Assembly (NCBI GenBank): GCA_946011705.1
Contig: CAMGCA010000007.1
Location: forward strand, 1-19,641
Direction: 5' to 3'
Length of the DNA stretch: 19,641 nucleotides
Source: an uncultured Clostridia bacterium
Lineage (GTDB): Bacteria; Bacillota; Clostridia; Oscillospirales; Oscillospiraceae
In this document: one piece after another, positions 11,734-16,510 of the stretch
How the letters are laid out: each line of letters opens with the position of its first letter
Numbering within the stretch: position 1 is the stretch's first letter
Translations under genes and position numbers: made by a program
The notes under the pieces: model-generated
Databases searched by the model: none
What the model was told of the DNA's origin: nothing
Seen by the model: only the letters and a program-made list of their open reading frames with translations

Positions 11734-12777
11734 TCAATAATGCACCACATTGCCCGCCCTGCGGATGCGCGCGAGAATGGGAGCGGCTTCCGCTCTGGTG
11801 AAATAGTCCAATGTGGTTTGGGGCACCAGCGTTTTCAGGGTGTCCCAGTCGGCGTTTTGCAGGGCTACCCGGACGGTGGAGGCGCTGATGGCTCTGCCGC
11901 CCGCTTCCTTCCGGGGAATGATGTGGCACTGGATGCCCGCTTTTGGCAGTTCCTCCGCCATAATTTTGTTGTACAGTCCCGTGACTTGACTGGTAGGCTC
12001 CTCGCCCACAAAACGGTGGGTCGCGTTGAGGGCCTTTGCAATTTTCGTGAACACCGCCAAGTCCAGCCGGGCGTGGCCGTCGATGACCGCTGCCTCGTCT
12101 TTCAGAAAATAGCTGGGGAAGGTGGCGCTGCTGATGATGTAGGGGCCGGAATCGTGGAGAACCACGTTGGGGATGTGGGCAACCCCCGCCTGCACCAGTT
12201 CTTTGCGCACGGTGAAGGGCACCAGAGAAGCGTCCTCGCTGAGGACGAACAGATGGAGGGTGTCGCACTGGGCGGCGGCAGTCTCCACAAGGTACTGATG
12301 GCCCAGGGTGAAGGGGTTGGCGTTCATGACCAGAGCGGCGGAAACCCCCTCTTTTTTCGTTTTTTCCAGATTTTTCAGGTAATTGGGGAAGCCGCTTTTT
12401 CGGTTTTCCATGAACACCAGCGTGCCGTCCACCCGGGCGATCTCGTGAAAGCCCAGATCCCCGAAAAATTTGGCGGAACCCACCTTGGTGTACAGAAACA
12501 GGTGGAGATTCCCTCTTGCCTGCTGCACCTCCATCAGGTGGGAAATGATCTCGTTCAGCAAGCCCTCGCCCTGATGCTCGGAACTGACGGCGAAGCACCG
12601 CAGGGTACAGCCAAAGCAGCTGCCAGTAGCAATGACTTCATCATCTTCATCCCGCATGGCGCAGATGTAGTCCAGATTTCCGTCCCGGGTGATGCCCTCC
12701 TTTTGAAGCAATGCGTCGATTTGGGCCAAACTGCGCTTGTCCGAGGGGTAGACTTGGGAAATGGCGTAATCACTCAT
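11734..12777 (-). CDS. citC: [Citrate (pro-3S)-lyase] ligase
   Basis: A 347-residue enzyme that acetylates the phosphoribosyl-dephospho-CoA arm of the citrate lyase acyl carrier protein with acetate and ATP, switching the lyase on. The N-terminal GNAT-like domain includes VSSEHQGEGLLNEI (64-77). The C-terminal nucleotidyltransferase domain has MNANPFTLGHQYLVE (151-165; HxGH-like motif) and GGRAISASTVR, the ISxST-type motif. Length fits the family. Its ATG overlaps the end of citXG by 8 bases (ATGAGTGA), so the two are translationally coupled. The subunit genes citDEF are not in the window. Function is firm by family resemblance. Confidence 0.93.
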   Translation of the reverse strand: MSDYAISQVYPSDKRSLAQIDALLQKEGITRDGNLDYICAMRDEDDEVIATGSCFGCTLRCFAVSSEHQGEGLLNEIISHLMEVQQARGNLHLFLYTKVGSAKFFGDLGFHEIARVDGTLVFMENRKSGFPNYLKNLEKTKKEGVSAALVMNANPFTLGHQYLVETAAAQCDTLHLFVLSEDASLVPFTVRKELVQAGVAHIPNVVLHDSGPYIISSATFPSYFLKDEAAVIDGHARLDLAVFTKIAKALNATHRFVGEEPTSQVTGLYNKIMAEELPKAGIQCHIIPRKEAGGRAISASTVRVALQNADWDTLKTLVPQTTLDYFTRAEAAPILARIRRAGNVVHY

Positions 12778-14119
12778 GGGGTTCCTCCTTCAAAAAATGC
12801 AGCAGATAGACCAGGGCCAGCAGGTCTGCCGTGCCGCCGGGCGACAGGTTTTTTCGGGTAAATTCCGTGTCCAGCACTTCCAGCGTCTCTCTGGACGGGA
12901 AGGGCTCCTTTTCAAGCAAAGCTTTCAGTTTCTCCGATGTTTCCTTCGCCAGCACATAGCCGCCACGGTGGATCATGTTGGTGTCCACGGTGCTTGCCAG
13001 CATGGCAAGGAGTGCCGCGCAGCCCGCTTCGTTGATGGTTTTTCCCGCGGCCAGGGCGGCTTCCAGCTTGGGAAGGCCCACGTTTAAGACGGCGGGGAAG
13101 CCCCCTTCCGCCTCCCCCCGAACCCCGGTGATGCCGTATTGCAGGTACAGCTTCTGCCCGGCGGTTTTTGCGGTTTCGGACGTAAGGTTTACATAATCTT
13201 GGCTTACAAGTCCATTCGTCATGGCGGCGCACTCTGCCAGAACCGCCTTGGGGTCACTCCACTGCTGCCGTTCCAGCCGTCCTAACGCCCCGCAAAGGAT
13301 GCCCATGGAGAAAATGGCCCCCTTGTGGGTGTTGACCCCGCCCGTGGCGTGGAGCATTTCCCCCTCGGCCAGTTTCCCCGGCAGGCGCAGACGGCGGAAG
13401 GTCTCCCGGGGGTCTTCTGTGGTTCTTCCAATTTTCACACATTGCGAAAAATAGGGGTATAGGGCGGCAGCGCTGGCCTGGAAGGTAAAGAAATCCATAT
13501 CCCTGTGGCTGCCGCTGTTTTCCCGGTCCACCAGCCCCGGCTTGGGGGTGGTGGCAACCTCATAGAGGAGGGCTTGTGTGGCAAGTTTCGCGACGGTTTG
13601 GCAGTCCTCCAGTATGACGGCATCCTCCAAAATCTGCCGGGTTCTCTCCTGCAATTGGGCAACGGAATGGGTGCGGCTTCTGGCGCAGGCCTGGGCCATG
13701 CCGCCGCAGATCAGGCACTTCCGGCCCTCCCGGCCCAGCTCCTGCCGGTCGACCTTTCTGCCGTCGGGACAGAGAACGTCCATGTCAAACAGTCGTCCCA
13801 CAGGTGCGTGATCCTCAATCTCCACAGTGATTGCCTTGACTGCAAGGGAATCGGCATCCAGCAGAAAAATGGCCTCATTTCCCGTTTTCTCCTGGATTTC
13901 CTCAAAATAGATTACCGGGATTCCAGCCGCCTCCAGCTGCTGCCGCAAAAGACGCTTTCCCAGGGCGTAACCCCGGCGGATCAGGGCGTTATTCTTCACC
14001 GGCCCGGCAATGTTCATGGTAAAGCAGACCATGGTCTTTCCGTGGGCGCTCAAAAGTACCCGCTGCCGGTTCGCCCGGCGCTCCCGGGCTTCCAGCATTT
14101 CCAGCAATGTCACTTCCAT
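12770..14119 (-). CDS. citXG: Fused CitX-CitG: citrate lyase prosthetic-group synthesis and transfer
   Basis: A 449-residue bifunctional protein. Residues about 1-165 are CitX (apo-citrate lyase phosphoribosyl-dephospho-CoA transferase), with NIAGPVKNN (36-44), RLFDMDVLCPDG (109-120) and RKCLICGG (133-140). Residues about 170-449 are CitG (triphosphoribosyl-dephospho-CoA synthase), with TTPKPGLVDRENSGSH (190-205) and ATGGVNTHKGAIFSMG (258-273). CitG makes the prosthetic-group precursor from dephospho-CoA and ATP, and CitX attaches it to the acyl carrier subunit. Such fusions are known. AAAGGAG precedes the ATG by about 6 bases. It forms an operon with citC. Confidence 0.93.
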   Translation of the reverse strand: MEVTLLEMLEARERRANRQRVLLSAHGKTMVCFTMNIAGPVKNNALIRRGYALGKRLLRQQLEAAGIPVIYFEEIQEKTGNEAIFLLDADSLAVKAITVEIEDHAPVGRLFDMDVLCPDGRKVDRQELGREGRKCLICGGMAQACARSRTHSVAQLQERTRQILEDAVILEDCQTVAKLATQALLYEVATTPKPGLVDRENSGSHRDMDFFTFQASAAALYPYFSQCVKIGRTTEDPRETFRRLRLPGKLAEGEMLHATGGVNTHKGAIFSMGILCGALGRLERQQWSDPKAVLAECAAMTNGLVSQDYVNLTSETAKTAGQKLYLQYGITGVRGEAEGGFPAVLNVGLPKLEAALAAGKTINEAGCAALLAMLASTVDTNMIHRGGYVLAKETSEKLKALLEKEPFPSRETLEVLDTEFTRKNLSPGGTADLLALVYLLHFLKEEPHE

Positions 14120-14366: not shown

Positions 14367-14576
14367 ATGTTCTATTTCAATAAGGACAGACACCCGGCGG
14401 ATTTTGCGCCGGGTGTCTTTGCCAGTGGAGGCGGTTATCTGGCCAACCAAGAGATCATTTTACAATGTGCGGAAGATAATCTGGATCCGATTGATGAGGA
14501 ACTCATCCGACAGGCAGAAAAGTTTGGCGTTCCACCGCGGAAACTTCTGATACTAATTCTCGATAAAAATGTTTAA
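14367..14576 (+). CDS. Small open frame of unknown function (doubtful)
   Basis: A 69-codon frame on the opposite strand to all genes around it. I do not recognise it. The N-terminal third runs through the 14389-14417 hairpin and is probably not coding. The C-terminal part (QEIILQCAEDNLDPIDEELI, then RQAEKFGVPPRKLLIL) looks like an amphipathic helical segment. No ribosome site stands before the ATG. Its stop lies inside the inverted repeat 14557-14589. It may be a gene fragment. Confidence 0.22.
   Translation: MFYFNKDRHPADFAPGVFASGGGYLANQEIILQCAEDNLDPIDEELIRQAEKFGVPPRKLLILILDKNV
14389..14417. other. GC-rich hairpin, possible terminator
   Basis: GACACCCGGCG (14389-14399) pairs perfectly with CGCCGGGTGTC (14407-14417) around GATTTTG. 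On the plus strand TTT follows; on the minus strand no T-run is present. It may end minus-strand read-through from the symporter unit before the citXG promoter. Confidence 0.4.
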
Positions 14577-14589
14577 TTTTTATCGAGAA
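14557..14589. repeat. 14-bp perfect inverted repeat
   Basis: TTCTCGATAAAAAT (14557-14570) is repeated inverted at 14576-14589 around a 5-base spacer. The A/T-rich inner arms and the position downstream of the symporter terminator could suit a weak bidirectional terminator or a protein-binding site. Open frames from both sides end within it with the same residues LDKN. Confidence 0.55.
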
Positions 14590-14728
14590 GGCACCGCCTG
14601 ATGGCGTTGCCGAATATGTGATATTCCTTGGAGTTGAAACAAAATGAACCGGAAGAATCCTGCCTGAACAGCTGATGCATACCGGTGGAGGCCAGACCCG
14701 ATACCGCTCTGCCCAGAATTTGTTCCGC

Positions 14729-14762
14729 CGAAAAAGAAATGGGCTGCCGCAAGCGACAGCCC
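14729..14762 (-). terminator. Terminator of the symporter gene
   Basis: On the minus strand GGGCTGTCG pairs with CGGCAGCCC around a tight CTTG loop (one G-U pair), followed by ATTTCTTTTTC. It starts 15 bp after the symporter stop codon. Confidence 0.75.
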
Positions 14763-14776
14763 AATGGTGTATTTGC

Positions 14777-16006
14777 TTACTTTTCCTCAGCAGCAACAGA
14801 ATCCAGCTTGACGGTATGCTTCATGGCCACGGAACAGGCGATATCGCCCAGGACGTTGCAGCAGGTGGCGCCCATGTCACACAGGGTGTTAACGCTGATG
14901 TACACGCCCATGACACCGGCGGGCAGCCCGGCGATGGTGGACAGGGCGGCGAAGCAGGCGATGGCGCTGCCGGGTACGCCGGGGGCGCCGATGGAGAGCA
15001 ATGTGTTGGACAGCATCACCACCACCATCATACCGAAGGTGATCTCCACGCCGCAGGCATTGGCAAAGAACACGATCATGAAGGACATGATGATGGACAC
15101 GGCGTCCATGTTGATGGTGGCGCCCAGGGGCAGAGCCAGGGAGGAAATCTCGTTGGGTACGCCCATTTCATCGGCGCAGCGCTTGCTGATGGGGATGGTG
15201 GCGGCGCTGGAGCAGGTGCCGAAAGCGGTCAGAGCCGCAGGCATCACGGACTTGAAGAACTTCAGCGCGGGGTATTTGCCGATGAACTTCACAATACCGC
15301 CGTAGACCAGCAGGATGTAGAAGAAATAGGTGACGTACATGGCAACCAGCACACCGCCCAGAGCGATCATGGTCTGCACGCCGTTGGCGTACATCACGGA
15401 AGCGATGGAGCAGAACACACCCACGGGGGTGCAGAACATGACCCAGCTCACCACCTTGATGCAGATGGCGTGGAAAGACTCACAGAGCTTGACAACAGGC
15501 TCGGCAGTTTTGCCCAGGGTCAGGCAGGCGATGCCCACGATGATGGCGAACACCAACACCTGCAGCATATCGCCGGTGGCGAAGGAGGCCACGGGGTTGG
15601 CGGGGATCAGGTTCTTCACGGTATCGAGCAGATTGGTAAATTTTGCCGCTTCCACGGTGGAGTCCATCATCTGAATGGAAACGCCCTTGCCCAGGCCCAG
15701 CATCCGGGGCAGGAACAGACCCAGGGTGCTGGCGATCAGGGTGGTGGAAACGAAGTACAGCACGGACTGACCGCCCACCTTGCCGGTGGCGCTGACGGAG
15801 CCGATGCCCTGAATGCCGATGATCAGACTGCAGAAGACCAGCGGATAGATCATCATGCGCAGGGCGTTCATGTACAGGCTGCTGATGGTCTGGATTACCG
15901 GCAGGGCGAATTCATACCGGCCCGGCATGAACAGGCCGAACAGGATGCCCAGCACCAATCCGATAAAGATGGCCAGGGTGATGTTCAGGGATTTTTTCTT
16001 TTTCAT
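14777..16006 (-). CDS. DAACS-family amino acid:cation symporter, probably for a neutral amino acid
   Basis: A 409-residue membrane transporter of the glutamate-transporter fold (Glt/DctA/ASCT family). Hairpin 1 carries FGTCSSAATIPIS (262-274) and helix 7 has NMDA (299-302) in place of the usual NMDGT. Hairpin 2 has APGVPGSA (341-348) and helix 8 has CDMGATCCNVLGD (376-388). Aligned with the archaeal aspartate transporter GltPh, D394, T398 and N401 are kept (D377, T381, N384), but the arginine R397 that binds the substrate's side-chain carboxylate is alanine (A380). This argues against aspartate or glutamate and for a neutral substrate. ATG16006 follows AAGGAGG by 6-7 bases; the longer frame upstream is T-box leader. 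Expression is set by the T-box. Confidence 0.9.
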   Translation of the reverse strand: MKKKKSLNITLAIFIGLVLGILFGLFMPGRYEFALPVIQTISSLYMNALRMMIYPLVFCSLIIGIQGIGSVSATGKVGGQSVLYFVSTTLIASTLGLFLPRMLGLGKGVSIQMMDSTVEAAKFTNLLDTVKNLIPANPVASFATGDMLQVLVFAIIVGIACLTLGKTAEPVVKLCESFHAICIKVVSWVMFCTPVGVFCSIASVMYANGVQTMIALGGVLVAMYVTYFFYILLVYGGIVKFIGKYPALKFFKSVMPAALTAFGTCSSAATIPISKRCADEMGVPNEISSLALPLGATINMDAVSIIMSFMIVFFANACGVEITFGMMVVVMLSNTLLSIGAPGVPGSAIACFAALSTIAGLPAGVMGVYISVNTLCDMGATCCNVLGDIACSVAMKHTVKLDSVAAEEK

Positions 16007-16019
16007 AGAGATCCTCCTT

Positions 16020-16288
16020 ACAAAATAAAAACCCCCGTCTTCCAAACAGAAGACGGGCGTCATTGTCCGTGGTACCACTTCTCTTCGTTCCGTAAACGGA
16101 ACCTCCTTGCGGATGCCCAGCAGCATCCTCCGCTGTAACGGGCAAACCCGTCGCGGCTTAAATGTTCAGCCGCGCTGCTCCGGAGCCATGTTCCTTCGCG
16201 GCCGCCTGTCTCCCTTCCAGCACCCGGGAGACTCTCTGAAAAGCGGGGAGAGCGAAGTACTCTTTCCTTCACTGCATTTTCCTATACG
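16020..16288 (-). ncRNA. T-box riboswitch leader, candidate methionine specifier AUG
   Basis: The leader spans about 270 nt from the predicted start to the terminator. Stem I is seen as CTTCGC/GCGAAG and CCGCTT/AGGCGG, with the CAGAGAG bulge and a TCTCCC/GGGAGA distal arm. Further hairpins lie at GCGCGGC/GCCGCG and ACGGG/CCCGT. Next comes the T-box core AGTGGTACCACGG (16067-16079), then the terminator. The 3' side of the specifier loop reads GAACATGG; following the GAAC-codon pattern gives AUG (Met). The bulge UGGU would pair with a tRNA having A73, which fits Met and excludes Trp, His, Asp, Asn, Glu and Gly. The T-box is firm; the amino acid is inference. Confidence 0.85.
16024..16057 (-). 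terminator. T-box regulatory terminator
   Basis: On the minus strand CCCGTCTTC pairs with GAAGACGGG around TGTTTG, followed by GGTTTTTATTTTG. It lies between the T-box core and the ribosome site of the symporter. Uncharged tRNA should stabilise the competing antiterminator and allow read-through. Confidence 0.88.
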
Positions 16289-16294
16289 GGAAAT

Positions 16295-16323
16295 ATTATA
16301 AAAAATTCGGGAGAAAATGTCAA
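16295..16323 (-). promoter_or_regulatory. Consensus sigma-A promoter of the T-box/symporter unit
   Basis: On the minus strand TTGACA (16318-16323) and TATAAT (16295-16300) are both perfect consensus and exactly 17 bp apart. The expected start is near 16288, giving a leader length normal for a T-box. Transcription is thus probably strong and constant, with control at the riboswitch. Confidence 0.9.
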
Positions 16324-16339
16324 GAAAAAATGAACGAAA

Positions 16340-16510
16340 TTTTCCCGATTGCCGCATTGGCAACCGAGCCGCTTTGGGCTGTGCCTCGGGTAAAAAGGGC
16401 GTTTCGGCAAACGGTTGGCCCGACGCAAAACACCGTCGCTTGCCAAGTGGCGGTGTCGGATTTGGTCAGCCAAATCGTAGGGGCAGGTCGTCGATCTGCC
16501 CCCGCTATGC
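16340..16510. repeat. Palindrome-rich spacer with stacked hairpins
   Basis: This region holds no convincing gene but several strong inverted repeats. CACCGTCGCTTG and CAAGTGGCGGTG pair fully, allowing two G-U pairs (about 16429-16453). GGGGCAG and CTGCCCC pair at 16480-16486 and 16496-16502, preceded by CGTA. Shorter pairs involve GCCG/CGGC and CCGAG/CTCGG blocks. It may be a decayed intergenic repeat element (REP/MITE-like) or the 3' structure of the DUF2284 transcript. Confidence 0.5.

Follow-up and report, generated by a model that had tools for sequence, protein, structure and literature searches.

The window, a stretch of 19,641 nucleotides of DNA from an uncultured Clostridia bacterium, carries on its minus strand a symporter locus that forms a complete transcription unit (16323-14740, -), with a promoter, a T-box leader, a terminator, a gene of the SDF family and a second terminator-like site (Table 1). 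The promoter is the sole promoter-like site within 14600-16500; shuffled sequence averaged 0.8 sites when the threshold was relaxed to 9/12 matches. The initial annotation had proposed a T-box in the leader, and the Rfam covariance model RF00230 bears this out over its whole length (model positions 1-219), scoring 118.3 bits (gathering score, 93) with an E value of 4.6e-26. According to the covariance alignment, the 3′ arm of the antiterminator shares sequence with the 5′ arm of the terminator, so that the two are an exclusive pair, as is usual in T-boxes that act on transcription; the terminator hairpin also appears in the predicted fold of the leader (114 nt, z-score -2.42). The ATG behind the AAGGAGG is the likely start of the symporter and was preferred to that of a longer ORF of 449 aa, which begins inside the T-box leader. 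Because of the terminator-like site after the gene, the unit looks monocistronic. Elsewhere in the window we observed a citX-citG fusion (PF03802 + PF01874) with a citrate lyase ligase gene, downstream and on the same strand (11734-14119), and two neighbouring half-size chromate transporter genes (PF02417; 17090-18098).

Table 1 Features of the symporter transcription unit, in window coordinates
Feature	Position	Strand	Basis
Sigma-70 type promoter, TTGACA-17-TATAAT	16295..16323	-	12/12 matches
T-box leader (RF00230), full length	16046..16281	-	Rfam covariance match
Specifier codon AUG (Met)	16187..16189	-	Covariance alignment
T-box bulge UGGU, complementary to ACCA of tRNA-Met (A73)	16074..16077	-	Covariance alignment, sequence
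Intrinsic terminator, 10 pairs + T tail	16034..16057	-	Terminator scan
Shine-Dalgarno AAGGAGG	16013..16019	-	Sequence
SDF/DAACS symporter, 409 aa, start ATG 16006	14777..16006	-	ORF + profile match
Intrinsic terminator-like site 3′ of gene	14740..14763	-	Terminator scan

The 3′ side of the specifier loop reads GAACAUGG (loop GAA-C-AUG-G), and the loop recurs identically in the T-box that precedes the methionyl-tRNA synthetase gene metS of the host genome (L003; NF008900, 738.7 bits, cut-off 598). A T-box search of the contigs of this genome, which is 73% complete, returned ten matches, four of them above the gathering score. Four other host T-boxes read GUC before valS, ACC before thrS, GCC before alaS and UGC before cysS, where the gene names and codons are our own reading, unlike metS, which was identified by profile match. 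Two more (L005 and L006) have specifiers that look like UGG, and another (L002), with the loop AAAUACCU in a UAC or ACC register, is followed by a small ORF and then by what reads as a peptidase-like gene. The candidate Met specifier of the initial annotation is placed in its AUG register by the host's own metS T-box and by the related leaders, of which all 26 that are readable agree, and not by the bulge.

The UGGU bulge does fit tRNA-Met, as had been argued from its discriminator, and yet it is not specific to it. The one tRNA-Met found in the host genome, elongator or initiator, ends ...GCU-A-CCA (A73), and among the 30 of 38 host tRNA matches that were compared, UGGU pairs with this tRNA-Met and not with tRNA-His (C73), tRNA-Thr(GGU) (U73) or tRNA-Cys (U73). 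The window and metS T-boxes carry UGGU and those of thrS and cysS carry UGGA; the valS and alaS T-boxes likewise carry UGGU, and the bulge therefore supports Met without proving it.

A His specifier, in the CAU register, was rejected. The would-be first base of that codon varies among the related leaders (C in 21/26, G in 5/26), the identical loop precedes metS, and the C73 of tRNA-His counts against it, though TBDB ignores the discriminator for His T-boxes. Moreover, the default frame of TBDB, which according to excerpts of its description places the codon 2-4 bases from the specifier bulge end (PMC7778990), gives AUG in the window leader. A recent copy of the metS leader was also rejected, given 67.8% identity to metS against 64.3-69.9% to the other eight host T-boxes. 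In the excerpted report on the S. aureus Met T-box, which prefers or binds initiator tRNA, a change of AUG to UGC in the leader did not impair initiator tRNA binding (PMC3771891), so a specifier alone is no proof of tRNA identity. Taking these comparisons together, control of the symporter unit by tRNA-Met appears, by comparative standards, close to certain.

The encoded protein matches the SDF domain over its full length (PF00375, E 7.1e-110; residues 10-397, profile positions 2-386 of 387). Counted from the preferred ATG, its TM8 motif reads D377-M-G-A380-T381-C-C-N384-V-L-G-D388 and aligns without gaps to DMGRTMVNVTGD of GltTk (6xwn) and DMARTTVNVTGD of 9bgz, which have DMGRT and DMART, respectively, where the window protein has DMGAT. 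In this alignment A380 occupies the position of GltPh R397, and the positions of GltPh D394, T398, N401 and D405 are kept; the Arg-to-Ala replacement and the retained D394, T398 and N401 equivalents described at the outset both hold. The NMDGT motif reads N299-M-D-A-V303, as had also been noted, with V303 at the position of GltPh T314. In GltPh, R397 and T314 hold the side-chain carboxylate, D394 and N401 are backbone ligands, and N310, D312, N401 and D405 are several of the Na+ ligands. The positions of D394, N401 and these Na+ ligands are conserved in the window protein, and the GltPh-type acidic signature (Arg at 397, Thr at 314) is absent, Ala380 and Val303 standing in its place. The pocket is very likely uncharged and suited to a neutral substrate, as judged from these residues. 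The best NCBIfam scores are all far under their cut-offs: DctA 197.8 vs 513 (NF002461) and 194 vs 570 (NF009587), and GltP 163.3 vs 638. SstT is far under its cut-off too, with 109.7 bits vs 308 (NF010151).

The glutamate and aspartate symporters of the DAACS family (PF00375), GltPh and GltTk among them, belong to the same fold family and have the HP1, NMD, HP2 and TM8 motifs in common with the window protein, which differs from GltPh and GltTk by R397 to Ala, T314 to Val and NMDGT to NMDAV, and in HP2 by SIGAPGVPGS where the GltPh/GltTk type has SIGTAGVPGA. Three other SDF genes were found in the host genome. L011 keeps NMDGT and the arginine, while L013 (Ala) and L014 (Gly), at 26-27% identity, are also without it, so the absence of the arginine is not unique to the subfamily described below; the pair NMDAV + DMGAT is unique to it among the proteins compared. 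The corresponding motifs of L013 and L014 are DPPAT and DSFGT, and neither protein matches any NCBIfam family above cut-off. The accessible part of a study of GltPh-R397C, with which our R397 numbering agrees, reports that this mutant lost aspartate uptake and gained serine and alanine uptake, and that methionine, cysteine and valine inhibited its serine uptake by 70%, 93% and 84%, respectively (PMC5750217); by this pattern, replacement of the arginine does not by itself select methionine. The same excerpts describe ASCT1 and ASCT2 (SLC1A4/SLC1A5), like GltPh-R397C, as transporters of neutral substrates that are likewise without Arg at 397, and name methionine among the known substrates of ASCT2 (PMC5750217). 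ASCT2 and GltPh-R397C have Cys at this position, whereas the window protein, bacterial and 409 aa long, has Ala. The initial annotation was fair in calling such a substrate unusual for the family, but not in any absolute sense, given methionine as an ASCT2 substrate and its inhibition of GltPh-R397C.

A scan of genome contigs yielded 56 related loci with 58-98% identity, mostly in Clostridia assemblies (gut or rumen where titles tell) and some in Selenomonadaceae, including the cultured Anaerovibrio slackiae (L061). As controls we took 20 homologues of about 35-38% identity by BLASTP (L016, L073-L091), the best outside the subfamily among the sampled genomes and not necessarily the nearest in existence. 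NMDAV was present in 54/56 loci and DMGATC.N in 55/56, the misses being the frameshifted L070 (both motifs) and the partial L072 (NMDAV); NMDGT with Arg was present in 20/20 controls. In a large protein database, NMDAV occurred in 120/120 and DMGATC.N in 118/120 of the matches listed (120 of 1360), and the two listed proteins without DMGATC.N still have Ala at the 397 position. In a tree, the 53 rows of the subfamily group together with support 100/100, on a long branch against five outside rows; the tree omits L070 (nine stops) and L071 (four stops), which look frameshifted or broken, and the partial L066 and L072, all four of which stay in the counts of 56. Among 295 genomes of the same order, a close copy was found only in the window's own, and among 391 genomes of the same class the other 19 matches (E 1e-75 or better) have 35-37% identity and fall outside the subfamily. 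Several loci nearly duplicate one another or group closely (L037/L038/L040, joined on neighbour evidence by L071/L072; L049/L050; L047/L051; L026/L027; L028/L029), and L020 and L021 share an assembly.

In 27/56 related loci the gene is preceded, at a distance of 74-268 nt, by a T-box motif, with the Rfam gathering score reached in 24/56; a T-box far upstream in L034 was left out of these counts. Of these 27 leaders, 26 are readable, all with AUG, preceded by C in 21 and by G in 5. The exception, L029, has a reduced T-box at about L029 2800-3000 that has lost Stem I and has a CGGU bulge. The motif was absent in 29/56 relatives (among them L066, which has no upstream DNA), a permissive search in ten motif-less relatives found no T-box just upstream of the gene, and 0/20 control homologues had the motif within up to 450 nt upstream (only 9 nt for L076). 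The recurrence of AUG, UGGU and the Ala/Val pair in relatives means that they are not due to chance. Rows with a T-box are scattered over several parts of the subfamily tree, a distribution that suggests an ancestral T-box with repeated loss; gains may have occurred too.

The genes around the relatives provide a line of evidence beyond the initial annotation. Searching flanks of up to about 3 kb per side with seven sulfur-gene queries, we found methionine or cysteine genes beside 16/56 relatives and 0/20 controls (Fisher p 0.008), a p value that is optimistic and indicative, since the queries were drawn from the test loci and near-duplicates leave about eight lineages by our grouping; flank DNA amounted to 103 kb for the controls vs 286 kb for the relatives. 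Neighbours above the NCBIfam cut-off are metY (605.7 vs 495.1), patB (457.8 vs 340) and cysK (465.3 vs 350.95). Below cut-off, with the family still the best, are a cystathionine gamma-synthase-like protein (351.8 vs 513), metA (446.8 vs 460.5) and metF (249 vs 293.7); a metH neighbour scores 342 vs 1010.9, its protein being cut by the end of the stretch, and a small neighbouring protein weakly matches the activation end of metH (E 8e-4). The metY match of L028 is a 71-aa fragment and the metH match of L029 is 30% identical. Ten of the 16 loci with sulfur neighbours are without the T-box motif, which extends the link to sulfur amino acids beyond the T-box; cysK, present at 4 loci, does not single out methionine. 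No sulfur amino acid gene adjoins the symporter gene of the window.

Elsewhere in the host genome there are two SAM riboswitches, of which one precedes a gene read as metK, and a MetQ-type lipoprotein gene (G000:C143:3444-4157) within a 548-aa open frame, so the symporter would be a second methionine system. Several relatives likewise have the MetQ-type gene in long frames (503-553 aa), which are possibly fusions with a permease. A model in which the symporter replaces MetNIQ found no support: MetQ-type genes occur in 27/50 genomes examined (26 above cut-off), and no clean replacement is seen. One homocysteine methyltransferase match was found in the host genome, with three strong but fragmentary matches to the Cys/Met enzyme family and some weak ones. 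Across the 10 genomes closest to the window (G668-G677), such methyltransferase matches fall within open frames of 286-357 aa, and MetH-sized frames (at least 736 aa) occur in 14/23 genomes without the T-box motif and in 9/16 other genomes with it, frame lengths that contig ends may shorten in genomes whose completeness forbids claims of absence. The window's clade may therefore have a limited capacity to make methionine, a condition that would favour import, but such a limit does not generally go with the T-box.

Published precedents were compared through excerpts of the papers concerned. The nearest that we found are CysP1 and CysP2 of C. perfringens, described as Na+/H+ symporters under Cys T-boxes, that is, secondary symporters behind a sulfur-amino-acid T-box in a clostridium (PMC2940859); the likeness is by description only, and the specifier is TGC (Cys) there vs AUG in the window and in the 26/26 readable relatives. 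In the excerpts of a survey of T-box transporters in 14 species by Wels et al., Met T-boxes stand before ABC systems only, and one C. perfringens DAACS has an unassigned T-box (PMC2494555). Excerpted reports also place an S-box before metT (PMC2940859), assign the methionine transport genes of C. difficile to SAM-I control and its methionyl-tRNA ligase to a T-box (PMC11477304), and count Na+/H+-dicarboxylate symporters among the genes that have riboswitches in antisense, which is not the layout seen here (PMC9943018). The known importer genes metNIQ and metT are likewise methionine-responsive, under Met T-boxes or SAM riboswitches; MetNIQ is of the ABC family, whereas the window protein is of the DAACS. 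MetT is of an NhaC-type family. SstT, a serine/threonine symporter, is a neutral-substrate member of the same superfamily, with the sub-threshold score given above. No DAACS methionine transporter was found among the matches listed in the searchable literature (most subscription journals lie outside it), and supplementary tables or TBDB entries possibly list such Met T-boxes already. As far as we searched, the NMDAV + DMGATC.N subfamily is undescribed, and a methionine assignment would be new for a bacterial DAACS, T-box-controlled amino acid symporters being already known.

The earlier reading of the gene as an importer of a neutral amino acid, perhaps methionine, is supported by these comparisons. 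Two alignments that could have contradicted it, that of the leader with its specifier and that of A380 with R397, both agree with it. The explanation that we consider best, and probable, is that the locus encodes a Na+-coupled methionine importer of the glutamate-transporter fold, induced by methionine starvation. The T-box, the AUG register, the residue replacements with their conservation in the subfamily and the sulfur-gene neighbours of relatives are seen in sequence; we infer the response to tRNA, the coupling to Na+, the inward direction and methionine as the main substrate, the last being our best single guess and a reasonably likely one. Transcription would begin at the promoter beside the T-box; with charged tRNA-Met, the leader terminator would form and transcription would halt. 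Uncharged tRNA-Met, once accumulated, would pair through its CAU anticodon to AUG and through its ACCA end to UGGU, and the antiterminator would then capture the 5′ arm of the terminator, so that the symporter is made. Ala and Val at the R397 and T314 positions would leave an uncharged pocket that fits a neutral, hydrophobic side chain. For the subfamily as a whole, with its patchy presence in Clostridia and Selenomonadaceae, we give an even chance to the broader proposal that the NMDAV + DMGATC.N proteins are dedicated Na+-methionine symporters, a substrate class new to the glutamate-transporter fold and reached by R397 to Ala and T314 to Val, part of the subfamily being regulated by a Met T-box and another part linked to metH, metY, metA or metF genes.

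Unlikely, if the foremost of the alternatives, is the import of a methionine precursor or a related compound (homocysteine, homoserine esters, cystathionine, methionine sulfoxide or S-methylmethionine), with the Met T-box driving salvage. Synthesis enzymes are indeed among the neighbours of the relatives (metY, metB-type, metH, metA and metF), but a methionine importer would show identical neighbours, no single precursor is indicated, and no synthesis gene adjoins the window gene itself. Homocysteine methyltransferases that use S-methylmethionine are of about the size of the 286-357 aa frames in the 10 genomes nearest the window, which fits salvage. So does the control of precursor and cofactor transport by Met T-boxes in L. 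plantarum, as excerpted from Wels et al. (PMC2494555).

We give slightly less weight to a symporter of broad neutral specificity (Ser/Thr/Ala/Cys/Met), equivalent to ASCT2 in a bacterium and simply placed under a Met T-box. Loss of the arginine widens the specificity of GltPh (PMC5750217, in part), and permease-only systems are expected by Wels et al., in the excerpted text, to be broader than their T-box indicates (PMC2494555). Against such breadth, the SstT score is far under its cut-off, Val for Thr at 314 makes the pocket more hydrophobic, and both the Met specifier and Met/Cys neighbours are found repeatedly in the subfamily. An acidic amino acid or C4-dicarboxylate symporter with coincidental substitutions, already disfavoured, is very improbable: the best NCBIfam scores do go to DctA and GltP, both under cut-off, but the two side-chain-carboxylate positions are replaced throughout the subfamily and kept in 20/20 controls, and a Met T-box lies upstream.

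How the SLC1/GltPh fold selects its substrate is a classical structure-function problem, one approach to which has been the mutation of R397. The subfamily offers a natural case where both of the acid-binding positions have changed, with the specifier codon as an independent pointer to the likely substrate. At least 120 protein clusters gain a testable function, the named ones being currently called dicarboxylate symporters. If the protein imports methionine, this suggests how some gut Clostridia scavenge it.

We also observed other elements around genes of the subfamily. In L017, the closest relative, the T-box leader is split at about 1130-1295 by an insert of ~162 nt that is MITE-like and ends in inverted repeats, TACTAATTCTTGATAAAAA ... 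TTTTTATCGAGAATTAGTA; the Stem I and antiterminator sequences persist. Downstream of the symporter gene of the window, at 14550-14590, ATACTAATTCTCGATAAAAA lies beside TTTTTATCGAGAA, end sequences of the same type, which such a small element may have left behind. In L029, the leader with the reduced T-box comprises a promoter-like sequence, an antiterminator-like region and a terminator, and is followed by patB-type and distant metH-like genes. Directly upstream of the symporter gene of L064, a T-box-less relative, lies a Clostridiales-1 RNA (RF01699, 102.4 bits; L064 2717-2881), and in L059 and L061, both Selenomonadaceae, the symporter gene has a tRNA-Glu (CTC) gene some 200 nt upstream.
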